This document shows positions 3,110-63,307 of a stretch of 64,000 nucleotides of DNA, piece after piece. Position numbers and translations under genes: made by a program. Within the stretch, counting starts at the first letter, position 1. The number at the start of each line of letters is the position of its first letter. The notes below the pieces were generated by a model that worked only from the letters and a program-made list of their open reading frames with translations, did no database searches and was not told the origin of the DNA. The stretch spans positions 1 through 64,000 of the forward strand of contig CAIXUG010000064.1 of assembly GCA_903922605.1 (NCBI GenBank). Reading direction: 5' to 3'. This stretch comes from an uncultured Verrucomicrobiota bacterium (GTDB lineage Bacteria > Verrucomicrobiota > Verrucomicrobiia > Limisphaerales > UBA9464).

Positions 3110-4675
3110 TTGCGCGTGTCCGAGACCTACGATCTGGCTGTGGTCGGCTCCGCCTTTGCCGGTTCGCTCACCGCGATGATTGCGCGACGGCTGGGCCGCT
3201 CGGTCGTGCTCCTTGAGCGCGGGCGGCATCCCCGCTTTGCCATTGGCGAATCCTCGACTCCGCTCGCCAACCTGCTGCTAGAACGGCTCGCGAACCGTTA
3301 CGGGCTCCCCGCCCTGGCCCCGCTCGCGAAATGGGGATCATGGCAGCGGGAGCATCCGGAGATCGGTTGCGGCCTGAAGCGCGGCTTCACTTTTTACCAT
3401 CATGACTTTGACCGGGCCTTTGCGCCGCGCACGGACCGGGCCAATGAACTGATGGTGGCCGCGAGCCCCAACGATACGATTTCCGACACCCACTGGTTCC
3501 GCCCCGACTTCGACCACTTTTTCCAGCGCGAGGCGGTTGCCCAAGGCGTGGTCTATCACGACGAGGTCAGCCTCACCGCCGCCGAGTTCGGCAATGACGG
3601 CGTCCGGCTCGCCGGCCGGCAGCGGGGGGAGCCCGTGGAGTTCCGCGCGCGCTTCGTGGTGGACGCCAGCGGGCCGCGCGGATTCCTGCACCGAGCGTTG
3701 GGACTCGGTGAGCGCTCTTTTGCCGGCTATCCCGCCACGCAGGCGCTGTACTCCCATTTCACCGGCGTGCGGCGCTGGGAGAACCTGAACCCGCCCGAAG
3801 GAACGCCGCCGTTCCCGCCGGACGATGCCGCGCTGCATCATGCCTTTCCTGGCGGCTGGATGTGGGTGTTGCGCTTCAACAACGGCATCACCAGCGCCGG
3901 CGTGTCCGTCAGTGATGAACTGGCGCAGGAACTGGTGCTGCACGAAGGCCAACCCGCCTGGCACCGCCTGCTGGCCCGCCTGCCCTCGGTCGCCCGGCAG
4001 TTTGCCCACGCCACGCCGACCCGCGAATTCACCCACATGCCGGCGCTGACCTTCCGCAGCACCCAGGCGGCGGGCGATCGCTGGGCGTTGCTGCCTTCCG
4101 CAGCGGGCTTTGTGGATCCCCTGCTCTCCACCGGCTTCACGCTCACGCTGCTGGGAGTGGAACGGTTGGCCGCACTGTTCGCCGAAAATCCGGTTCCATC
4201 GCGCCAAGATCTGGACGCCTACGCCGCCTCGGTGGATGCCGACGTGAACGCCGCCGCCGCGCTGATCGGCACCCTGCACCGGCACTTTGACCGGCCCGCC
4301 GATTTTCAGTCGCTGCTGATGCTTTACTTTGCCGCCGCCAGTTTCAGCGAGACAGCCCGGCGGCTGGACCGCCCGGAACTGGCCCCGGGATTCCTGCTGC
4401 GCGGGCATCCGGAATTTGCGGCCGGGCTCCACCGGATTCTGGAAGCGGTCCGGACCTCCGGTCTGCGCGGGGAAGCCCTGCTGCAGGCGGTCCGGGAAAC
4501 GGTCACGCCGGTGGACGTGGGCGGCTGGTGCAATCCGGCCCGGCAGAACTGGTATCCGGTGGAGATGGCCCCGCTCTTCGCGGCGGCGGACCGGCTGGGC
4601 AGCAGCCGGGAAGAAATCCGCGCCATGCTGCTGCGCGCCGGCGTCGAGGCGGCTCAGTTGCCCGGCGGCGGCTGA
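3110..4675 (+). CDS. FAD-dependent halogenase-like oxidoreductase
   Basis: A flavoprotein of the tryptophan-halogenase/geranylgeranyl-reductase group. The N-terminus has a Rossmann FAD-binding strand with VVGSAFAG at residues 11-18 and the FAIGESSTPL segment at 43-52 that is typical of flavin-dependent halogenase relatives. The halogenase signature WxWxIP appears only in modified form, as GGWMWVLRFNN, without the Ile-Pro, so halogenating activity is doubtful. A second FAD-contact segment, AAGFVDPLLSTG, is clear. It starts at a TTG (3110); a GTG at 3116 is an alternative. It overlaps convergently by 22 bases with the Spy-like gene. Substrate unknown. Confidence 0.8.
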   Translation: MRVSETYDLAVVGSAFAGSLTAMIARRLGRSVVLLERGRHPRFAIGESSTPLANLLLERLANRYGLPALAPLAKWGSWQREHPEIGCGLKRGFTFYHHDFDRAFAPRTDRANELMVAASPNDTISDTHWFRPDFDHFFQREAVAQGVVYHDEVSLTAAEFGNDGVRLAGRQRGEPVEFRARFVVDASGPRGFLHRALGLGERSFAGYPATQALYSHFTGVRRWENLNPPEGTPPFPPDDAALHHAFPGGWMWVLRFNNGITSAGVSVSDELAQELVLHEGQPAWHRLLARLPSVARQFAHATPTREFTHMPALTFRSTQAAGDRWALLPSAAGFVDPLLSTGFTLTLLGVERLAALFAENPVPSRQDLDAYAASVDADVNAAAALIGTLHRHFDRPADFQSLLMLYFAAASFSETARRLDRPELAPGFLLRGHPEFAAGLHRILEAVRTSGLRGEALLQAVRETVTPVDVGGWCNPARQNWYPVEMAPLFAAADRLGSSREEIRAMLLRAGVEAAQLPGGG

Positions 4676-35945: not shown

Positions 35946-37541
35946 ATGGTCGCCCCTGCGATTAAACCCAAACCGGCGCGCCGACCCAAAGCCGCGCCCA
36001 AAGCCGACGCAACCCTGGCCGAACTGCTGGCCCAGCTCGGTGATGCCTCGGTGAAGCCCGAGTCCAAGTCCGCCCTGACCGAGCGCGCCGTTCACGGCAC
36101 CACGCTTTTCGTGGCGTCCTGCTCGGTCGAAACCCGCTTCGGCGTGTTCCAGGCGCACGTCTTCCAGGACCTGATCCACAAGGGCTACATCATCGCGCTG
36201 GCTCACGGAAACCTGCACGCCAAGACCCTTTATACCCGCATCCATTCGTCCTGCGTCACCAGCGAAACGCTGCGCGGCTGCGACTGCGACTGCGTGCAGC
36301 AGCTCGAAGGGGCGCTGGAGGTCATCTCCAAACGCCACCACGGGATTCTCTTCTACCTGATGCAGGAAGGCCGCGGCGTCGGCTACGTGGCGAAAGCGCG
36401 CGACCGCATGCTCGTGCAGGCCAGCAGGGACCGCATCTCGACCTTTCAGGCCTACGCCGCCATGGGGCTGAAGAAGGACTACCGCAATTACGAGGATGTC
36501 TCGCATGTCTGCCATCTGCTCGGTCTGACCAAGACCAGGTGGGTGCTGCTCACGAACAATCCGGACAAGATTTCGGCCATGAGTGCCGCCGGCCTGAAGG
36601 TGTTGCGCGCCGAGCCGCTGGAGTTCGAGCCGTCCCCGTTCAACCTCTTCTACCTGACCACCAAGGCACAGAGCGGCCACATCCTGAAGCGCCCCAGCGA
36701 AGCCCAGCTCAAGGCGGCGCTGCCACCCGAGCCGGTCGTGCCCTTCAAGCCGCACGCCCTCGCCGAGGCGCAGCGGTTCGTTTACGCGGCCTGCTACTTC
36801 CTGCCGGTCAAGCCGGTGGACAGCGAAATTCTCCTCAGCGAGACGCAGTTCAAGGAGCACCAGGCCGACATCGAGCGCCAGATGGCCGGACCGATGCCGC
36901 TGGTGAAGGACTGCTACCTCATCCGCGACCACCGGTTCATCGTGCAGATTGACCGCGACCGTTTCACGCGCTTCCGCAAGGAACGGCCCGAGGATCCGCT
37001 CGTACCGCTGCTCACCACACCGTACTGGTTCCGCGTCCATGTCTATTTCGACATCGTGAGCGCCCAGGAGTTTGTCGTGCTCACCTACGGCAAGCCGAAG
37101 ATTTACGACCTGCCGATCCTGCGCCTGCAGAGCGAGTCGCTCTTCAACCGGCTGCCGCTGGCGAACATGGACAACCGCGACAAGTTCAAGCGCAGCCTTC
37201 GCGAGATCGTCCACTACGGGGTCGGTGCGATCTGCCTGCTCTACTTCGATGGCCGCGGTGCCGGTTTCGGTGCCCACGCCACCGACCGGATGCTGACCGA
37301 GCGCAGGGTCGCCTTCTCCAGTGACGAGGCGTACAAGAAGCTGGGCGTCACCTACGACAGCCGTGACTACGACGCCTGCTTCCAACTGCTCCGTCACCAC
37401 GTGCCCAACGCCCGCGTGCAGATGATCATGAACTCGCCGAGCAGCCTCGTAAAAAAGACCGAGTATGCCGCGGCGCTCAACAAGCATGGCCTCGAAGTCG
37501 AGAAGTGGATCTTCCTCGACGATCACACCATTGCGGACTGA
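35946..37541 (+). CDS. Tandem GTP-cyclohydrolase-II-like protein
   Basis: 531 residues from ATG 35946, with two copies of a RibA-like fold. The first (about 55-290) keeps the zinc cysteines C103, C114 and C116 with the exact RibA spacing (SSC, then CDC), and the LMQEGRGVGYVAK catalytic strand. The second (about 330-531) repeats the fold (LLYFDGRGAGFGAHATDRML, YDSRDYDACFQLLRHH) but lacks the cysteines, so it is probably non-catalytic. GCHII-like Urc1 proteins act in the uracil URC pathway. Adjacency to a phosphoribosyltransferase and a SIS protein makes that reading attractive, but a riboflavin-type reaction is not excluded. Confidence 0.8.
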   Translation: MVAPAIKPKPARRPKAAPKADATLAELLAQLGDASVKPESKSALTERAVHGTTLFVASCSVETRFGVFQAHVFQDLIHKGYIIALAHGNLHAKTLYTRIHSSCVTSETLRGCDCDCVQQLEGALEVISKRHHGILFYLMQEGRGVGYVAKARDRMLVQASRDRISTFQAYAAMGLKKDYRNYEDVSHVCHLLGLTKTRWVLLTNNPDKISAMSAAGLKVLRAEPLEFEPSPFNLFYLTTKAQSGHILKRPSEAQLKAALPPEPVVPFKPHALAEAQRFVYAACYFLPVKPVDSEILLSETQFKEHQADIERQMAGPMPLVKDCYLIRDHRFIVQIDRDRFTRFRKERPEDPLVPLLTTPYWFRVHVYFDIVSAQEFVVLTYGKPKIYDLPILRLQSESLFNRLPLANMDNRDKFKRSLREIVHYGVGAICLLYFDGRGAGFGAHATDRMLTERRVAFSSDEAYKKLGVTYDSRDYDACFQLLRHHVPNARVQMIMNSPSSLVKKTEYAAALNKHGLEVEKWIFLDDHTIAD

Positions 37542-37568
37542 GTCCCTTTTCTCCCACTCCCTGCGCCG

Positions 37569-38138
37569 GTGAACCGCCAGCAACTGCCGTCCCACCTCGA
37601 AGCCATTTACGGGCCGGACGAAATCCGCATCCGGGTGGCAACTGTCGCTGCCCGACTCGACCCGTGGGCGGCCGAGATCCGCAAGCAGTCGGGGCAGCAC
37701 CTGCTGGTAGTCTGCATCCTGCGCGGTGGCGTGTTCTTTTTCTCGGATCTCCTGCAGGCCATGCACGAGTCGGTGGAGCCGGCGTTCTGCCGCTGCCATG
37801 CCTATCGTAAGGGCGTCAACGGCGACGCGGCGGCGGAGCTGCAGGTTGATTTTCCGGTCACGGTCGCCGGACGGGCCGTGCTGCTCGTGGACAACATCTG
37901 CGACTCCGGCCGCACCCTCGCCGAAGTGGTCCGTCTCTGCCGCGAACGCGGGGCTGCCGAGGTCCGCACCGCCGTGCTGATCCACCGCCTGCGGGAGGAC
38001 AGCCGGCTGACTCCCGACCACAGGGCGTTCACCCATCCGGGAACCGAATGGTTCGCGGGTTATGGATTGCGCGACGGCGACGCGGCGATGAACTTTCCCA
38101 CGGTGTTCCGGGTGGTCCGAAGCACCGCCGTGTCGTGA
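37569..38138 (+). CDS. HPRT-like phosphoribosyltransferase
   Basis: 189 residues from GTG 37569, 27 bases after the cyclohydrolase-like gene. PRPP-binding loop VLLVDNICDSGRTLAEV, hood/strand VVCILRGGVFFFSDLLQ, and the base-pocket end GTEWFAGYGLRDGDAAMNFP match hypoxanthine-guanine phosphoribosyltransferases. The usual acidic pair of the PRPP loop reads D-N, with the second acid changed to Asn. It should turn a free base plus PRPP into a nucleotide; the base could be hypoxanthine or, given the neighbours, another nucleobase. Ends in a GTGA overlap with the SIS gene. Confidence 0.85.
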   Translation: MNRQQLPSHLEAIYGPDEIRIRVATVAARLDPWAAEIRKQSGQHLLVVCILRGGVFFFSDLLQAMHESVEPAFCRCHAYRKGVNGDAAAELQVDFPVTVAGRAVLLVDNICDSGRTLAEVVRLCRERGAAEVRTAVLIHRLREDSRLTPDHRAFTHPGTEWFAGYGLRDGDAAMNFPTVFRVVRSTAVS

Positions 38139-47400: not shown

Positions 47401-48186
47401 CTATCTCGTTGTCGCCGCTGCCGGTTCCGCCAACAACCCCGCAAACGGCAACCCGCTCGCATCCGGCGGCGCCGCCTCCAACCCGAGCGCACCGCTCCAC
47501 CACCCATACGCAGCCTCGCCCTCCCTCAACGGCGCGTTCAGGCGATCCCTCACCGCCCCCAGCAGCGCGCCCAGCTCCGCTTCCGTGGGGAACGCATTAT
47601 AATACCCCGTTTCCAGCCCCAGGCGCCGGGCCCAGCCGCCCGCCCGGGAAGGTTCGTCGCGGGCGAGCAATTGCAGCACGCACGTCCGGGCGAGCTGCCG
47701 GAGAAACCACACATCGATCAGCTCGAACTCGCCATCCGCCGCGAACTTCTGCTGCGCGCCAAACACGACGTGCTTCTGCGCGAAGGTGAAGACGCACATG
47801 CCCAGCCCCGTCCACGAGCGCAGCGTGTCCGCCACCGTCACGTCGCCGCCGGTGTTCTGCCCGCCAGCCGTGGCAAAGGCGGTCCCGAGTTTGCCCCAGA
47901 GCTGAAGCCCGGCACCCAGTTCCAGAAACCGCCGTACAAACCACGGCGAACCCTGCGCATAGGTCGGCGATGCGAGCACCAGCAGATCGGCCGTCGAGAG
48001 CAGCTCATGCACGCGCGACGTTGAGGTGATGGCCGGCAGGGCCCAGACCAGTTCCACAGCGATGTCCACGCCGGCTTCGTTCACCGCTTCCCGCGCGAAC
48101 CAGACGAACGCCAGCGACGCACGATGGCTGTCATGCCGACCGGTCGCCGAGCTGGGCGAGAAGTGGAGAAGACGGAGAATGCGCAT
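47401..48186 (-). CDS. Flavodoxin-fold NAD(P)H oxidoreductase-like protein
   Basis: 261 residues from ATG 48186. The N-terminal part has the flavodoxin-like strand MRILRLLHFSPSSATGRHD and ADLLVLASPTYAQGSPWFV, with GTAFATAGGQNTGGDVTV forming the flavin-loop region, as in NADPH-dependent FMN reductases. The C-terminal ~80 residues are Ala/Gly/Leu-rich helix with no clear match. Last gene of the ABC-importer operon. It might supply reduced flavin to an enzyme of the pathway; this is a guess from position. Confidence 0.68.
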   Translation of the reverse strand: MRILRLLHFSPSSATGRHDSHRASLAFVWFAREAVNEAGVDIAVELVWALPAITSTSRVHELLSTADLLVLASPTYAQGSPWFVRRFLELGAGLQLWGKLGTAFATAGGQNTGGDVTVADTLRSWTGLGMCVFTFAQKHVVFGAQQKFAADGEFELIDVWFLRQLARTCVLQLLARDEPSRAGGWARRLGLETGYYNAFPTEAELGALLGAVRDRLNAPLREGEAAYGWWSGALGLEAAPPDASGLPFAGLLAEPAAATTR

Positions 48187-48205: not shown

Positions 48206-49705
48206 TCACCGCAACTGGTATTCAAAAGGCACAAAATACATGTGCATTCCCCCCGGCGGCCAGCGCCAGCGGCGCTTCACATGTTTGACGGTTTCCCTGA
48301 CGATTTCGAACTTCAGCGACTTTTGTGAAGCCTCCACCAGCAGCGGCACACCATCCGTCCCGACCGTGACGAGGAGCGTGAATGATCCGTTCTCACCAAT
48401 CCTTAGCGCACTGGTAGGATAGGCGGGGGGCGGAAAAATGCCGCCCTGGCTGCGATACTGGTCCAGGACCGTGAGTTTACCAGCCAGCAAGGCTCGAAAC
48501 TCAAAGGGCGCCTCCACGTCATGAGCCGGTCCCGGTGGCCAGACCCACGCATAGCGGACCATGTCGCGACAGGCTGAATCCAGCCTAGCGAAGCCGGAGC
48601 TGCCGGTCACCTCGACCTGATCGGCCAGGCCATCGGCGCCCACGCTGATCCGCAGCCTGACTTCGCCCGCTTCGCCGTGAAGTTGGGATTTCCATGGATA
48701 ATCGGGTGCGGGCTGGCAGAGGGAAGCCGTCGGCTTGAAACCGCTGATCGGGCCATCCAGCAACTCACACACGGAAACAACCTGCGGCAACAGGCCCGCC
48801 CGGAAGGTTCTCTGCCCGATCCGACCCCAGGCGGCGGGATCGGGCGGCCTGAAACCCACCCCCCAATCAGAAGCATCCGGCTCCCTCGCCAGTTGCAACA
48901 CCCGCCGCAGGGAGGCGCGCTGATAGGCCGGATCAAATCCGGGCGCATAGCGTTTGATCACCAAACCGGCCGCCCCATCCGGGTCCAGGACCACTTCGCG
49001 CCAGCCCTGCCCCGACGCCGCAAGGAACCGTTCGACCGTCCGACGGTCGCGCTGGAGAAATTCCTCAGAAATGAAATAGGCCTGCGAAAAGGCCTGATAA
49101 CCCTGCTCATCAAACCGCAGGACGTTGATGGCCTTACCGGCCAGCTCCAGTTTTACTGCCTCGTCAATCGTGTAACCCTGCACCGCGTCGCATCCGCTTT
49201 CCAGCAGTGGCGTGAGATCCGCCTCCTGCTCGACCACGGTCAGTTGGTTGGTCGAAAGGCCATTGTTGGCCAACAGCAGCTCCAACGCCTTCCGTCCGTC
49301 GGGGTGGATGGCAATCTTCTTGCCCACCAGGTTCCTGGGACTCGTCAGGCCTCGCTCCTTGAAACTGAGCAGCGCCATTGGGCTCCCTTGGAACATCTGG
49401 CCGATGACCTTGATGGGGTGGCCCTTCGCCCGGGCCGCCAGCAACACGCTGCTTTCCGCACAGCCAATCCAGTTCGTGCCAGCGACGACACGCTCGACCA
49501 CCTTCATTTCCGGGTCCACCGGCAGAATGGTCACATCGAGCCCCAGGTCCCGGTAATAGCCCTTCTCCTTGGCCACCAGGATGCCGGCAAACTGGACGTT
49601 GAACTTCCAGTCTAGCTGGAAGGTGACCGGCGTCAGCTTTTCGGCGACTAATGACCAGCTGAATGAGCAGAGGCAGGCGAGCAGGAATGGCAGGCGCGGG
49701 TTCAT
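48206..49705 (-). CDS. NMT1/THI5-type binding protein fused to two TonB C-terminal domains
   Basis: 499 residues. Signal peptide 1-21 (cleaved after SLVA), then an NMT1/THI5-like periplasmic binding domain (~25-325: TFQLDWKFNVQFAGILVAKE, NLVGKKIAIHPDGRKAL, TIDEAVKLELAG). The end is two TonB C-terminal-like domains: 331-405 (PDYPWKSQLHGEAGEVRLRI, SSGFARLDSACRDM, YAWVWPPG) and 424-499 (PPAYPTSALRIGENGSFTLL, VKRRWRWPPG). No inner-membrane anchor is seen besides the signal peptide. The operon provides a permease and an ATPase, and a TonB-dependent receptor is encoded 10 kb away. It may bind both the receptor and the permease. Overlaps DUF3891 by ATGA. Confidence 0.85.
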   Translation of the reverse strand: MNPRLPFLLACLCSFSWSLVAEKLTPVTFQLDWKFNVQFAGILVAKEKGYYRDLGLDVTILPVDPEMKVVERVVAGTNWIGCAESSVLLAARAKGHPIKVIGQMFQGSPMALLSFKERGLTSPRNLVGKKIAIHPDGRKALELLLANNGLSTNQLTVVEQEADLTPLLESGCDAVQGYTIDEAVKLELAGKAINVLRFDEQGYQAFSQAYFISEEFLQRDRRTVERFLAASGQGWREVVLDPDGAAGLVIKRYAPGFDPAYQRASLRRVLQLAREPDASDWGVGFRPPDPAAWGRIGQRTFRAGLLPQVVSVCELLDGPISGFKPTASLCQPAPDYPWKSQLHGEAGEVRLRISVGADGLADQVEVTGSSGFARLDSACRDMVRYAWVWPPGPAHDVEAPFEFRALLAGKLTVLDQYRSQGGIFPPPAYPTSALRIGENGSFTLLVTVGTDGVPLLVEASQKSLKFEIVRETVKHVKRRWRWPPGGMHMYFVPFEYQLR

Positions 49706-50523
49706 GCGACGAGTTCCACCGCGAGGGTCTCGATCGGGGCGGCCCGATACCTGGCCTGGAGTTCACCCGCGCTGTCAAACGTGTCACCACTCACCCGTCG
49801 TCCTTTGATGCGGAAGCTCAACTTTGTTTCCGCAAATGGCCAAGGCATCAATTGGAACGTTCGCGGGGCCACACGGCGTACCTGCACTTCACTCGTGCCG
49901 CCGTCAAGGAGCGGCAGCGGGTGGAGCAGGCTCGCCGGGCCGTCAAAGTCTACGCAGGAAAGCAGACTCAGGTTGTCGCACGCCTGGAGCAGCCGGAAAT
50001 GTTCGGTGAGCCGTTCCATCGACAGGTCCTCGTCCCGGAAGCGGCCCGTGTCCGCCGCGGCGGCGCGGAGCTCGAGCTGGCGCTGCTGCTGCCGGGCGAT
50101 GAAGCCGTCGAGCAGCGGCAGCTCCGCCGGCCGGATGGTGCTGCGATCCGCTCGCGCCGCGAGCAGGTTCGCGGTGTGCATCGAGACCAGGATGGCGGCG
50201 TACGGATTGTCCGCCGCCACCAGTTCCATCGCGTTCCCGCGCACGCCGAGGTAATCGGCCAGATCAATCTCCTCGAAGGCGGTGTACTTGCCCACGAGAT
50301 CGGCCCCAAAGGCGCTCGGCTTGCCCGCCCGCGTGATGAGCGGTGCGGCGTCCCGCACAGCCCAGCCATCGTCATGCCGGCGGATGCCCTCGAGCACGTC
50401 CGGGCGCGGCTCGGGCGGACGGAAGCGTTCGTTGCCCCACGCGGCGGCGAACTCGCCCGCAAGCACGGCGTGGTCAGGATGGCGGATGAGGAACCAGCCT
50501 TCGGGAGTTTTTTGGCGGAGCAT
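49702..50523 (-). CDS. DUF3891 family protein
   Basis: 273 residues with HD-like features: DHAVLAGEFAAAWGNERF near the start, EGIRRHDDGWAVRDA and LVSMHTANLLAARAD later. His and Asp clusters suggest metal-dependent hydrolase activity. The family is uncharacterised. It is embedded in the importer operon and overlaps the binding protein as ATGA, so a role in processing the imported compound is likely but unproven. Confidence 0.78.
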   Translation of the reverse strand: MLRQKTPEGWFLIRHPDHAVLAGEFAAAWGNERFRPPEPRPDVLEGIRRHDDGWAVRDAAPLITRAGKPSAFGADLVGKYTAFEEIDLADYLGVRGNAMELVAADNPYAAILVSMHTANLLAARADRSTIRPAELPLLDGFIARQQQRQLELRAAAADTGRFRDEDLSMERLTEHFRLLQACDNLSLLSCVDFDGPASLLHPLPLLDGGTSEVQVRRVAPRTFQLMPWPFAETKLSFRIKGRRVSGDTFDSAGELQARYRAAPIETLAVELVA

Positions 50524-50634: not shown

Positions 50635-51426
50635 TTATTCGGCTTCCGGCTTCATGGCGGCCTCGTGCCACTGGTGCAGGAACAGCCACTCGAAGAAAAT
50701 CACGATGAAGAAAAAAAGAAAGCCCAGCGCGCTGGCCGTGAGCACCAGCGCAAAAAGGTAGTCGGTCTGGAGCTGGCTGTTGGCGTAGGTGATCGAGTAG
50801 CCCAGCCCGCCCTGCCCCACCGCGTTCGAGCTCGCGAAGAACTCACCCGTGATGGCGCCAATGACCGAGATGCCGGCCGAGATACGAAGGCCCACGAAGA
50901 GATTCGGCACTGCGTGCGGGAAGCGGAGCTTCAGCAGCACCTGCGCCCGTGACGCATTCGACATGGTAAACAGGTCCACCAGGTTCTTGGGCACGGTAAT
51001 CAGTCCCTGCGTCGTGTTGGCGATGATGGGGAACAGGCAGATGATGAAGGCCACGAGCATGACCGAGCGCAGTCCGGAGCCGAACCACATGAGGATGAGC
51101 GGCGCAACGGCGACGATCGGCACCGTCTGCAACAGGATGGTGTAGGGAAAGAACGATCGGCGGATGACCGGTGACTGGGCAAAGAAGAACGCGATGATGA
51201 CACCCACCATAATGCTCATAGCGTAGCCCCCGGCAGCTTCCAACGCGGTGATGCGAAAAGCGTTGATCAGGCTCTCGTGCCGTTCGATGACCGCCGCCCA
51301 CACCGCCGGCGGTGCGGGCAGGATGTAACCCGGGATCTTGAAGGCAACGCACGCGCCCTGCCAAAGCGCCAGCACAGCCAGCAGGACACCCAGAGGCCAG
51401 CCGGCGGATCGAAGTAGCTTTTTCAT
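50635..51426 (-). CDS. ABC importer permease (SsuC/ThiX type)
   Basis: 263 residues with about six transmembrane helices. The EAA loop that docks on the ATPase reads NASRAQVLLKLRFPHAVPNL with the conserved G nearby (VGLRISAGISVIGAI). Family members move sulfonates, nitrate, taurine or thiamin precursors such as HMP. Partnered with the ATPase upstream and the NMT1-TonB binding protein downstream. The ligand is probably a pyrimidine-like or amide compound, from context. Confidence 0.9.
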   Translation of the reverse strand: MKKLLRSAGWPLGVLLAVLALWQGACVAFKIPGYILPAPPAVWAAVIERHESLINAFRITALEAAGGYAMSIMVGVIIAFFFAQSPVIRRSFFPYTILLQTVPIVAVAPLILMWFGSGLRSVMLVAFIICLFPIIANTTQGLITVPKNLVDLFTMSNASRAQVLLKLRFPHAVPNLFVGLRISAGISVIGAITGEFFASSNAVGQGGLGYSITYANSQLQTDYLFALVLTASALGFLFFFIVIFFEWLFLHQWHEAAMKPEAE

Positions 51427-51458: not shown

Positions 51459-52241
51459 TCAGGCCAGGGCTTTCACGGCGCGCAGGGCGGCGCTGACTTC
51501 GCCCACCAGCGCCAGGTATTCGGGGGCACTTCGCAGGCTCGCGGTGCGCGGGAATGGGAATGGCACCGGAATCTCCCGCTCAATCCGGCCCGGCTTGGCG
51601 CGGAGCACGATGATGCGCGTGGAGAGAAAAACGGCCTCGGCGACGCTGTGCGTGACGAAGAACGTGGTGAACCGATCATTTTCGCGCAGGCGCAGGACCT
51701 CCTCGTTCAGGAAGTCGCGCGTCATCTCGTCGAGCGCGCCAAACGGCTCGTCCATCAGCAGGATTTTCGGGCGCGTGGCCAGGGCGCGGGCGATGGACAC
51801 CCGCATCTTCATGCCGCCGCTAAGCTGGCGCGGATAGTGACTCGCAACATCGGCGAGACCGACGAGCTTCAGCAGGTCGGCGCACTTGGCCCGGCGCTGC
51901 TCCCGGGTGGTTTTGCGTTCGAGTTCGAGGCCGAGTTCGACATTGCCCAGCACCGTCCGCCACGGCAGCAGGGTCGCGTCCTGAAAAATGAAGGACATGA
52001 TCTCGCGGGCCGCGTCGGGAGCCATGCCATCCAAGGTGATCCGCCCCGAGGTCAGCGGGCTCAGACCCGAAAGCAGCTTGAGCAGGGTGGATTTGCCGCA
52101 ACCGCTCGGCCCGATCAGCGAGATGAAATCGCCTTTTGCCACCGTCAGGAGGACCCGGTCGAGCACGGTCGAGCCCGAGGCCCACGTCTTGGTGACGTCG
52201 GTGAGCGAAATGAAGGGCGGCGTTGACGGGCTGTCGCTCAC
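51459..52241 (-). CDS. ABC importer ATPase (SsuB/ThiZ type)
   Basis: 260 residues. Walker A IGPSGCGKSTLLKLL (residues ~43-57), Q-loop FIFQDATLLPWRTV, signature LSGGMKMRVSIARAL, Walker B ILLMDEPFGALDEMTRD and the switch His in TTFFVTHSVAEAVFL are all present. It drives the permease encoded 32 bases downstream. It overlaps the upstream CocE-like gene by 4 bases, so hydrolase and importer are translationally coupled. Confidence 0.93.
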   Translation of the reverse strand: MSDSPSTPPFISLTDVTKTWASGSTVLDRVLLTVAKGDFISLIGPSGCGKSTLLKLLSGLSPLTSGRITLDGMAPDAAREIMSFIFQDATLLPWRTVLGNVELGLELERKTTREQRRAKCADLLKLVGLADVASHYPRQLSGGMKMRVSIARALATRPKILLMDEPFGALDEMTRDFLNEEVLRLRENDRFTTFFVTHSVAEAVFLSTRIIVLRAKPGRIEREIPVPFPFPRTASLRSAPEYLALVGEVSAALRAVKALA

Positions 52242-59381: not shown

Positions 59382-61850
59382 ATGAATCACCATTCCTGCC
59401 TGCATATCCCCGCACGGCTGGGCGGAGTCGCCCTGCTCACGAGTCTCGCCGCGTGGTCCGTGGCCGCCCAGAACGCCGCCTCCACCAACGCCCCGACGGT
59501 GATGGAAAAGACCGTGGTCGAAGGTTTGCCGCTGGACGAAACCGTGCTTCCCACCGCCCGGCCGCTGAGCTCGGTCCTTGGCGATGACCGCAGCATCATC
59601 GACACGCCCCGCTCCGTCAGCCTGATCACCAAGGCGCAGATGGAGGCGCGCGGCATCTCGCAGATGACCGACATCGGGCAGCTGGCTCCCGGCGCCTACA
59701 CGCCCGAGCGTTACGGACTGCCGGGCGTACCGGTCATCCGCGGGGACCTCGCGGAGATCTACCAGAACGGCCAGCGGATGCTCTACAGCCGTGACTCCAT
59801 CCTGCCCAGCTTCAACCAGGTCGAGGCTCTGGATGTGGTGAAGGGCCCCGGCTCCGCCATCTATGGCCCGCAGGGTCAGGGTCCGGGCGGCTACGTGAAC
59901 TTCGTCACCAAGCAGCCGTACTTCGACCAGTTCCACGCTGACGTCACCACCAAATGGGGAACCTACGTCCCGGGTGGCCAGTCCTTTTTCAGCCCGGAAT
60001 GGAACCTGGACCTCGGCGGGCCGATCAACAAGGAGCTGGCCTACCGGGTCAGTTATCTCGGGCGCGAAGCCGACAGCTACTACCAAAACGTCAAAAACGA
60101 CACCCAGGACATTTTCACGGCGCTGACCTGGCGCCCCAATGAGAAGCTGGAACTGGACTGGACCGCGCAGTACATCAACAGCCGGTTCAACGAGATCACG
60201 GGCATCAACCGCGTCACGCAGGAACTGATCGATCGCGAGATCTACAACGCCGGCCCGGTGCTGCCAAACAACGCCTTCGGTGGTCCGGTCTATCCCGACG
60301 GCGGCTTTGCCATCCTGGATCCGGCGCAGGCCCACAAGGTCAAGATCTACGGATATGAGGCGCTCACCTCTCCCGGTGACATTGCCCTCGGGCAGAAGTT
60401 CAACTCGCAACTGATCACCACCTACTACCTCAGCGACTCCGCGAAGATCGTCAACCTCTCCTACGGCGAGTTCATGGAGACGCAGAAGTTCGAGCAGTAT
60501 GGCTACAGCGAATTCGTGCCGGTAGACTGGATGATCAACAACCGCACCGAACTCCATTTCGATTTCGACGTGAAGGCGGGCAGTCATGACTTCGCCATCA
60601 AGACCATTTCCGGGGTGGATTTCCGCTACCAGAAGCTTCTGTCCTACCAGGACTTCACGGACGAGCCGTTTTTCATCTATGACCTGAGCAATCCCGCCAG
60701 TTCACTCACCTTCCCCACCGCCACCGGGACAGTCGGCGGCGGACTTCCGATCATCGGACATCCGAAATATGGCATTACCACGTTTTATGACTTTTCCAAG
60801 AATCCCCCCGTCCCGGTGGCGACACCCAACGGAAGCCAGGATTCGGAGCTGACGCAGGTCGGCCTTTTCACCCAGTGGGAGGCGCAGATTTTTGAGAAGT
60901 TTTCCATCGTGACCGGTGGCCGGCTCGACATCCTGGATGCCAATGCGGCCAGCCCGGAGATCGTGGGCTATTCCAAAGGATACTTCTATCAGGCCGAGGC
61001 GGATGTCCTGGATCCTTCCGTGTTTGTGAGCGGGATCTACAAATGGACCCCCACCGTGTCGTCCTACGTGACCTACGACCTGACCGAGGCGGTCACGGGC
61101 AGTCCCAATTTCGGCGGCGTCGATGGCACGGGCGGCAATTCGGGGTTGCGCCGGTCGTTGCAGGCGGAAAGCCAGCTGATCGAGGTCGGCACCAAAGCCA
61201 GCCTCTTTCACAATCAGGTCTATGTGGGTGTGGCCGCATTCGACCAGAGCCGTCTCCGTCCCAATCTGACCGGCCCGGCCTCGTTGATCGATACGCGCGG
61301 CATCGAGCTGGAAGCGGTCTATCAGCCGAACCGCAACTTCAACCTCAATGCCAACCTGACCCTTCAGGACTCCTACAATGAATATCCTCCGGGTGCTTCC
61401 GGATACGAGCAGACGGCAAACTACCTGGACGGATACCCGGTTGGGTTTCCGGCCGATTCCGCCGCCCCGGGCGGAGGCGCCGGGCTGGGGAATGGAAGCC
61501 CCAACTACGCGGGGAACAATGTGGGGCGACTCCCGCTGGCGGCCGCGCCGAAGCTGCTCTTCAACGCCTACGCGACCTACATGTTTGAATCGGGATTTGG
61601 CTTCAGCGTGGGACCCCAGGTGCAAAGCAGCCAGCGGGCAAACCAGGAGGGCACGCTCATCATTCCGGCCCAGTATGTGTTCAACGCATCGTTCTTCTAC
61701 AAGCGGCCCAAATGGGAGGTGCAGATCAACTTCTTCAACTTCACCGACCAGCGGAACTGGACCTCGATCGACCCGGATTTCGCGGGCAACGACGTGATCT
61801 TCCCTGAGCTGCCGTTCCATATCAGCGGTCTGGTGAAGTACAAATTCTGA
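59382..61850 (+). CDS. TonB-dependent outer-membrane receptor
   Basis: 822 residues from ATG 59382, with a signal peptide cut near SVAA. A candidate TonB box (MEKTVVEG, ~41-48) precedes the plug: DTPRSVSLITKAQMEARGI, VPVIRGDLAEIYQNGQRM and VEALDVVKGPGSAIYGPQGQ. The 22-strand barrel ends in GLVKYKF with the C-terminal Phe required for outer-membrane assembly. The plug sequence is of the siderophore-receptor subfamily, but the locus (ABC importer, amidases, deaminases) suggests an organic amide or nucleobase-like ligand. A terminator follows. Confidence 0.93.
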   Translation: MNHHSCLHIPARLGGVALLTSLAAWSVAAQNAASTNAPTVMEKTVVEGLPLDETVLPTARPLSSVLGDDRSIIDTPRSVSLITKAQMEARGISQMTDIGQLAPGAYTPERYGLPGVPVIRGDLAEIYQNGQRMLYSRDSILPSFNQVEALDVVKGPGSAIYGPQGQGPGGYVNFVTKQPYFDQFHADVTTKWGTYVPGGQSFFSPEWNLDLGGPINKELAYRVSYLGREADSYYQNVKNDTQDIFTALTWRPNEKLELDWTAQYINSRFNEITGINRVTQELIDREIYNAGPVLPNNAFGGPVYPDGGFAILDPAQAHKVKIYGYEALTSPGDIALGQKFNSQLITTYYLSDSAKIVNLSYGEFMETQKFEQYGYSEFVPVDWMINNRTELHFDFDVKAGSHDFAIKTISGVDFRYQKLLSYQDFTDEPFFIYDLSNPASSLTFPTATGTVGGGLPIIGHPKYGITTFYDFSKNPPVPVATPNGSQDSELTQVGLFTQWEAQIFEKFSIVTGGRLDILDANAASPEIVGYSKGYFYQAEADVLDPSVFVSGIYKWTPTVSSYVTYDLTEAVTGSPNFGGVDGTGGNSGLRRSLQAESQLIEVGTKASLFHNQVYVGVAAFDQSRLRPNLTGPASLIDTRGIELEAVYQPNRNFNLNANLTLQDSYNEYPPGASGYEQTANYLDGYPVGFPADSAAPGGGAGLGNGSPNYAGNNVGRLPLAAAPKLLFNAYATYMFESGFGFSVGPQVQSSQRANQEGTLIIPAQYVFNASFFYKRPKWEVQINFFNFTDQRNWTSIDPDFAGNDVIFPELPFHISGLVKYKF

Positions 61851-62180: not shown

Positions 62181-62225
62181 CGGCAGGAGGTCGAGCCCGC
62201 CTTCCCTCCTCCTTTCCGCCCCAGA

Positions 62226-63307
62226 ATCTCTGGCCCCACCCTGGCCCTTGCCGCCCTGCTACTGGGCCTCGCCCTGTTGACCAGTGGCTGCGGTCCCGGG
62301 GAAAAGACACCGACGGTGGTCGGCACCTCCGTTGACACCTCCACCAATTTCCCCGCCCTGCCGACCCTGAACTTCACCCACGACTGGGTGCCGGAGCCCG
62401 AGCATGGTGGCTACTAGGCCGCGTCACTGAAAGGCATCTGGAAAGAGCTTGGGGTGACCGTAAACGTCCTCATCGGCGGGCCGAACTCCGAGATCGAGAA
62501 GCGCGTTGCGCTCGATCCCTACGGGCTCGGGATCGTGCGCGGCGATGCGGTGTTCATCGCGGTCGAGCGCGGTCTGCCCATCATCGCCGTCAACTCGTAC
62601 TTCCAGCACGATCCGCAGGGCGTGATGGTCCGGGCCGATTCCCCGGTAAAAACCTTCGCGGACCTTGATGATCGCGACCTTGCCATGCAGGTCGGCGCGC
62701 CGTGGCTTCTGTACCTGCAAAAGAAATACGGCCTGACGAGATCCGCGTGCGGCCGGTCACGGGCAGTGTCGCCAACTTCGTCCGCGACCCAAACTGGATC
62801 ACCCAGGCCTATCCCACCAGCGAACCCTATTATGCCGCCAAGGAGGGCGTCGCCGCGCGCATGATCCAGATCAGCGACTCCGGTTTTGACCCGTACCGCG
62901 TCATCATCGCCAACAAGGAACTCGTGACGGAGCACCCCGAGCTGGTCGCCAAGTTCAGTCTTGGTGCCTATCGCGGCTGGCAGGAATATTTCCGCGATCC
63001 GCAGCCCATCCACGACTACCTCCTGAAAATCTCACCCACGATGGAAATGGGCGGCATGCGCTTCAGCTATGTGAAGTTGCGCGAGCTGAAGCTGGTAGAT
63101 GGCGATCCGGCCAAGGGCGAAAGCATGGGCGCAGTCAGCCTCAGCCGCTGGGAGGAGCTCGGGAAGATCCTGCTCGACCTCGGCGTCATCAAACAGCATC
63201 TGCTCCTCTCCGATGTGGTCACCGACGCGTTTACGCCGGAAAAGTTGAACCATGATCCCACCCTACCCCCGCCGTTCTGGAGTGATGCGCCCATTCCCAC
63301 CCAATAA
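62226..63307 (+). pseudogene. NMT1/THI5-type binding lipoprotein, broken
   Basis: Remnant of a substrate-binding lipoprotein. Signal region GPTLALAALLLGLALL and lipobox LLTSGC, then LPTLNFTHDWVPEPEHGGY, where the next codon is TAG (62415-62417) instead of the Gln usually seen in GGYYQA-type motifs. The same frame continues with SLKGIWKELGVTVNVLIGGP. At ~62735 one base is missing: YGL must be followed by DEIRVRPVTGSVANFV in the -1 frame, which runs intact to 63307. No start codon is visible in frame. Three lesions make it non-functional as written. It lies between the receptor and an amidohydrolase. Confidence 0.85.

Follow-up and report, generated by a model that had tools for sequence, protein, structure and literature searches.

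How a substrate that has entered through a TonB-dependent receptor travels on to an importer in the inner membrane is, to our knowledge, not a settled matter, and one gene in the DNA described here raises that question directly. Within the window (the whole stretch of 64,000 nucleotides that was analysed), a 499-residue open reading frame carries an NMT1/THI5-like ligand-binding domain together with two TonB C-terminal domains. Both parts were already known, and what is new is their combination in one chain; no report of a binding protein with TonB domains was found in the titles and opening lines of abstracts that were searched, most of the subscription literature and the domain-architecture databases lying outside that search. 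An initial annotation had proposed that the product could dock on a receptor from the periplasmic side and pass ligand straight to an ABC importer. The fusion suggests, on the reading of its domains, a physical line of hand-over from an outer-membrane gate to an inner-membrane pump. As a gene fusion of both kinds of partner, lying inside a cluster for a receptor and an importer, it makes the hand-over idea directly testable with soluble proteins.

Table 1 Positions in the window of the fusion gene, its parts and the associated genes.
Feature	Position	Strand	Evidence
Fusion gene: signal peptide, NMT1 binding domain and two TonB C-terminal domains, 499 aa	48206..49705	minus	
Probable signal peptide, residues 1-21	49643..49705	minus	cleavage after LVA judged by eye
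NMT1/THI5 ligand-binding domain, residues 36-245	48971..49600	minus	PF09084 E 3.4e-41; confident AlphaFold core
TonB C-terminal domain, module 1, residues 332-403	48497..48712	minus	PF03544 49.1 bits alone
TonB C-terminal domain, module 2, about residues 425-497	48215..48433	minus	PF03544 35.8 bits alone; Foldseek
DUF3891 protein; stop overlaps fusion start	49702..50523	minus	PF13030 E 1e-42
ABC permease of the importer	50635..51426	minus	PF00528 E 7.4e-27
ABC ATPase of the importer	51459..52241	minus	PF00005 E 3.6e-32
FMN-reductase-like protein, directly downstream of the fusion	47401..48186	minus	PF03358 23.9 bits (cut-off 24, narrowly missed); synteny
TonB-dependent receptor of the same conserved cluster	59382..61850	plus	Plug domain E 1.8e-10; orthologs

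The identity of the parts was assessed by profile searches and structure models. The binding domain is complete, with positions 1-216 of the 216 in PF09084 matched, and its top solved chain is 4nmy (phmmer, E 3.3e-16); the NCBIfam model SsuA_fam scores 34, far under its cut-off of 163.5. In the C-terminal part, Pfam TonB_C finds two stretches that together reach 77.9 bits against a cut-off of 24.6, and the NCBIfam model TIGR01352 (tonB_Cterm) likewise finds two, at 56.7 bits against 27.1. Each module also exceeds the Pfam cut-off singly in a genome-level profile search. The two modules are 31% identical to one another and have in common a core of YP, GxDG and W-W-PPG. Module 1 matches solved TonB chains, best 9ddz (phmmer, E 6.4e-5), and is weakly matched by NF038079 of NCBIfam over model positions 9-58 of 792 (E 0.14). 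For module 2, an AlphaFold model built from a two-row alignment, with module 1 as the sole relative, gave a strand-strand-helix-strand fold with a pLDDT of 66. When this model was searched against the PDB with Foldseek, the best 17 matches were all TonB-type C-terminal domains, including FusB, TonB of several species, HasB and TonB2, with probabilities of 0.91-1.00 and E values of 0.011-0.19. As none of these E values falls below 0.001, and as residues 320-499 have a pLDDT below 50 in a full-length model in which the binding domain is confident, we treat the fold as supportive and let the sequence evidence carry the TonB assignment. The modelled fold of module 2 agrees with that assignment, weak as it would be taken alone.

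These results bear out the initial annotation, which had read the protein as a signal peptide (judged by eye here), a full binding domain and two TonB modules repeating one motif pattern. It had also remarked that a membrane anchor and a Pro-rich spacer are missing, and reading the sequence by eye we agree: no second hydrophobic segment is seen besides the cleavable-looking signal peptide, and there is no Pro-rich spacer at residues 245-331 or 405-424. The fusion is thus apparently an exported, unanchored binding protein of an ABC importer. Elsewhere in the same genome (labelled G000 in comparisons with relatives), TonB_C has one match over its cut-off, a 237-aa frame on contig C85 with a hydrophobic segment and a Pro-rich spacer by eye, and one match under it (21.8 bits, contig C54).

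A chimera of this kind could arise from an assembly or frame artefact that joined two genes, and the two-module form is indeed known from one genome only among those searched. Against this, the gene has an ATG start and a single open frame with no stops, and its surroundings are those expected of the intact gene. Among 16 ortholog loci in relatives, the FMN-reductase gene adjoins the binding protein in 13 and DUF3891 in 11, with both present, as they are here, in 10; G231 and one of the two G208 copies have neither neighbour, and one locus of the 16 stops at a contig edge. Gene calls at these loci used a simple codon score, which missed genes in G199 and G208 that tblastn placed. The codon model also prefers the gene's own frame in both modules (0.09-0.10 bits per codon, against -0.35 to -0.65 in the other two forward frames). 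Module 1 gives -0.013 on the reverse strand, and the stretch between binding domain and module 1 is about neutral in the gene's own frame (-0.026 bits per codon). Because the same two neighbours recur in 10 of the 16 loci and the modules fit best in the gene's frame, we consider a join artefact very improbable and reject misassembly as the source of the fusion.

The surrounding genes show which transport system the protein accompanies. As the initial annotation had it, the gene sits in an operon with a matching ABC permease and ATPase, and a TonB-dependent receptor is encoded about 10 kb away. The FMN-reductase-like gene begins 19 bases past the fusion stop. The cluster, with gaps in some genomes, comprises in order genes for the FMN-reductase-like protein, the binding protein, DUF3891, permease, ATPase, an S15 hydrolase and a creatininase, and then an FAD oxidase, a deaminase, an amidase, the receptor, further NMT1 proteins and an 8-oxoguanine deaminase-like protein. 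To the left of the fusion in the window are genes for a PreA-like protein, a dihydropyrimidinase and an NCS1 nucleobase symporter. These cluster and left-flank neighbours suggest that the ligand of the importer is a nucleobase-like N-heterocycle. Further off, a GTP cyclohydrolase II-like protein (35946-37541, plus strand) adjoins a uracil phosphoribosyltransferase-like protein (37569-38138, plus strand), and we take this pair (35946-38138) to resemble the URC set for uracil catabolism. Beside the receptor, a second NMT1-type binding protein (62190-63307, plus strand) is broken, first by a stop in frame and further on by a change of frame. In relative G137 this second gene is intact and the TonB fusion is missing, the reciprocal of the arrangement in G000; G231 and G285 are among several genomes with both.

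The receptor belongs to the same conserved gene cluster as the binding protein. We counted as receptor orthologs matches of 55% identity or more, excluding those of 35-39% as paralogs, and as close orthologs of the binding protein matches with E 1e-56 or better, in a family set of 50 genomes. The binding protein is present in 24 of these genomes and the receptor in 32, that is, in all 24 with the binding protein and in 8 of the 26 without it, by a hand tally over genomes that share ancestry. The initial annotation had raised the question of whether a receptor is always nearby. Although one is encoded in every genome with the binding protein, the two genes share a contig, 6.7-9.7 kb apart, in only 13 of the 24. 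In the other 11 they lie on different contigs, several of which end near the gene; in G199, where the contig continues and the cluster lacks nothing as far as the amidase, the receptor is truly elsewhere.

We next consider the same binding protein in the other genomes of the family, where its C-terminus varies. Two TonB_C modules are found on the ortholog from G000 only, and 20 of the 24 genomes have an ortholog with no TonB domain, counting G282, whose contig stops before the C-terminus, and G301, whose frame is interrupted. In the sister genus g6, four proteins from three genomes (G199, G293 and, twice, G208) bear about 104 extra C-terminal residues. Pfam does not call this extension in the two of the four proteins that were scanned. 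In one hhalign comparison with TonB domains, using a TonB profile that includes a duplicate and fragment rows, the extension reached a probability of 96.7% (E 3.4e-10), and 20 column-shuffled controls reached at most 4.94. We take the extension to be a single degenerate TonB-like domain on the orthologous binding protein. The pair G199 and G293 gives a dN of 0.196 and dS of 1.64 for this module and a dN of 0.073 and dS of 0.931 for the binding domain (dN/dS of about 0.12 and 0.08, respectively), the other five of the six pairs being near or at saturation of dS. The g6 module is, on these substitution rates, under purifying selection in the sole pair near enough to judge.

In two congeners, G006 and G253, the same binding protein has an FGE-sulfatase domain at its C-terminus. 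They also encode in the operon a full TonB of 254 aa, with hydrophobic segment, Pro-rich stretch and TonB domain (TIGR01352 48.3 bits in G006; PF03544 53.3 bits in G253). This TonB gene begins within the last bases of the FMN-reductase gene that adjoins the binding protein. In both genomes (loci L014 and L015) a coiled-coil-like protein follows the operon TonB gene. In G155 two NMT1 domains stand in tandem in one protein (631 aa as called); this copy lies outside the usual cluster, the FMN-reductase gene being its sole cluster neighbour. The remaining orthologs are a binding domain alone, with G282 and G301 incomplete. Since g6 carries a fused degenerate module and G006 and G253 an operon TonB, the link of this binding protein to TonB appears to recur both in cis and in trans. 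A separate observation in the family is a 405-aa frame at locus L087 (G264:C231, about 3166-3735, minus strand) that has two TonB_C stretches, an apparent signal peptide and no Pro-rich spacer, and is possibly another unanchored tandem TonB protein.

A common origin of these TonB links was assessed with approximately unbiased (AU) tests on a reduced tree of 22 rows, the fuller tree having 35. One clade uniting G000, the four g6 proteins and G006/G253 is rejected (p 2.4e-5). A clade of G000 and the g6 proteins alone is not rejected (p 0.143), but neither is it established, since G000 sits on a long branch of uncertain placement; the fuller ortholog tree likewise gives G000 no firm position.

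A second example of the fusion was sought more widely, in order, phylum and family samples that overlap with one another. The whole protein as query finds matches in 44 of the 293 genomes from the order (E 1e-10) and in 77 of the 387 from the phylum (E 1e-12), and no second place covering both parts is found in the order and phylum samples among the matches listed (the best 4-5 candidates per genome). When up to 30 loci per search were scanned for both domains, 11 frames with both were recovered among 159 loci, all 11 being instances, from loci that overlap, of the G000 protein and the four g6 proteins. With the two modules as query, 81 of the 320 genomes from the order give matches. These lie in separate frames, the majority about as long as a TonB and few longer than 400 aa; one merged row, covering residues 6-173 of a 289-aa frame, comes from G069. 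In a plasmid collection 441 records match, and none of the best 15 of these 441 covers 80% of the query. Fusions outside the family, order and phylum samples would escape these searches. The architecture that the initial annotation had thought worth seeking in other genomes thus does recur as a single degenerate module in g6, but in its exact two-module form is known from one genome only.

This variety at the C-terminus could mean that the modules are recent accretions with no Ton-related role, on a binding protein that tolerates additions. The additions do vary, with FGE-sulfatase for G006 and G253, another NMT1 domain for G155 and none for most other genomes, so that the protein evidently accepts unrelated parts. 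The modules are lower in third-position GC (0.68-0.69 against 0.79), and their codon-model scores are below that of the binding domain (0.415 bits per codon). The gene is, by comparison of clusters, also dispensable, both for the cluster and within the genus. In G137, the nearest relative examined as judged by the cluster (DNA identity of 83-90% across most of its length and 78% in part of the receptor gene), receptor, permease and ATPase are kept but the binding-protein gene is missing, and DUF3891 runs directly into the FMN-reductase gene. G064 also lacks the gene, with 28 bases between the same two neighbours, which makes at least two congeners with the importer cluster but no binding-protein gene in it. 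However, the YP, GxDG, W-W-PPG core is intact in both modules, the gene's frame is the one that suits them best, and TonB-type modules occur on the same protein in a second genus, where they are conserved. Accretion with no Ton-related role therefore seems to us rather unlikely.

The reading that we prefer, at somewhat less than an even chance, is that the TonB modules bring the binding protein to a dock at the receptor, or elsewhere in the Ton zone, and that the importer then receives the ligand. Reported interactions make docking near the receptor the explanation that we rank first. TonB domains are reported to join their targets by strand addition (PMC12204202) and, more specifically, to bind the TonB box (PMC11658791); binding of TonB to FhuD and BtuF, two periplasmic binding proteins, is reported as well (via references in PMC3813593), and the TonB homolog FusB is reported to bind its receptor and then its substrate (PMC13253070). 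A receptor-partner abbreviation in PMC13217887 was dropped as a lead, as it denotes a thioredoxin-fold protein, and a short TonB-like protein with an effect on septal peptidoglycan (PMC8262864) contributes little here. On the docking reading, an ABC-importer binding protein would have acquired a pair of TonB-type C-terminal domains serving as docking arms. The arms would bind the TonB box of the cluster receptor, or in some other way keep the protein beneath the outer membrane, where Ton contacts are made. Ligand leaving the receptor barrel would be caught on the spot by the docked binding protein, which would then let go and deliver it to the permease. Having no anchor, the fusion protein would itself transmit no force, and the resident 237-aa TonB would still open the plug.

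Several observations would favour docking: both modules exceed curated cut-offs, the receptor accompanies the binding protein in all 24 genomes, g6 has its fused module and G006 and G253 their operon TonB, and a TonB-box-like stretch is kept, by eye, at the receptor N-terminus past the signal peptide. Others would speak against it. The clusters of G137 and G064 do without the gene, so docking by this protein is not required for the cluster. When G000 is compared with fusion-less G137, every 50-residue window of receptor residues 1-200 shows 90-100% identity, with divergence falling in residues 200-750, and because residues 1-200 are nearly unchanged the periplasmic side of the receptor seems to show no adaptation to the fusion. 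(Among the 30 rows of the receptor alignment, G300, G298 and G274 are antisense frames and G294 and G301 are partial; the G137 figures are unaffected.) The 20 of 24 ortholog genomes with no TonB domain, the 11 in which the receptor is on another contig, and a C-terminus that also accretes FGE-sulfatase or a second NMT1 would likewise count against docking, and a free TonB domain could compete with TonB itself.

That last concern can be turned into a role, in which free TonB domains hold the TonB box of the receptor until the binding protein is loaded and so tune receptor use. TonB domains are reported to bind TonB boxes generally (PMC12204202 and PMC11658791), and the TonB part of the fusion has no visible connection to a motor, but such a device would presuppose ligand-dependent exposure, and we regard it as improbable. 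Alternatively, the tandem modules could pair together, or with peptidoglycan, and hold the binding protein in the wall zone with no receptor contact. According to a review (PMC7014051), TonB dimerises in solution, and the dimers are proposed to contact peptidoglycan in such a way that one monomer positions its partner close to the outer membrane. Two modules in a single chain could form such a pair, and the fusion shows no other anchor. The lone g6 module, however, would be unable to pair in cis, and genes for receptor and TonB accompany this binding protein, so a tether of this kind is in our view unlikely. Returning to docking, its fullest statement is that a covalent chimera of TonB domains and binding protein takes its place beneath its own receptor and there guides substrate on from the outer-membrane gate to the ABC importer. 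It would then be a one-polypeptide natural proof of direct hand-over, and a degenerate fused module or a dedicated operon TonB would be parallel solutions in sister lineages. This fuller statement we put forward tentatively, as possible and on balance doubtful.

In comparison with known systems, the fusion shares with TonB energy transducers (PF03544/TIGR01352) a C-terminal domain with the YP, GxDG, W-W-PPG core, and its best fold matches are TonB, but it differs in having no second membrane helix or Pro-rich spacer and in bearing tandem copies on a binding protein. Like NMT1/THI5-like (SsuA/ThiY-type) binding proteins, it has the full domain, is apparently exported and is encoded near a permease and an ATPase; unlike them, it has some 170 extra C-terminal residues that make up the TonB domains. 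The weak NF038079 match to module 1 suggests a likeness to MxcH-type receptors in the fusion of a TonB-type domain to a protein of the Ton path; we take NF038079 to be MxcH-type, with the TonB-type domain there presumably fused to the receptor itself. In E. coli, TonB and the periplasmic binding proteins FhuD and BtuF are also reported to be brought together (cited in PMC3813593), and the adaptor idea fits that reported binding by analogy; there, however, the partners are separate proteins, whereas here they form a single covalent chain with no visible link from its TonB part to a motor. In Pectobacterium, FusB is reported (PMC13253070) to use a TonB-type C-terminal domain to engage both receptor and cargo, a putative likeness for the fusion, but it is itself an inner-membrane TonB homolog with a protein substrate.
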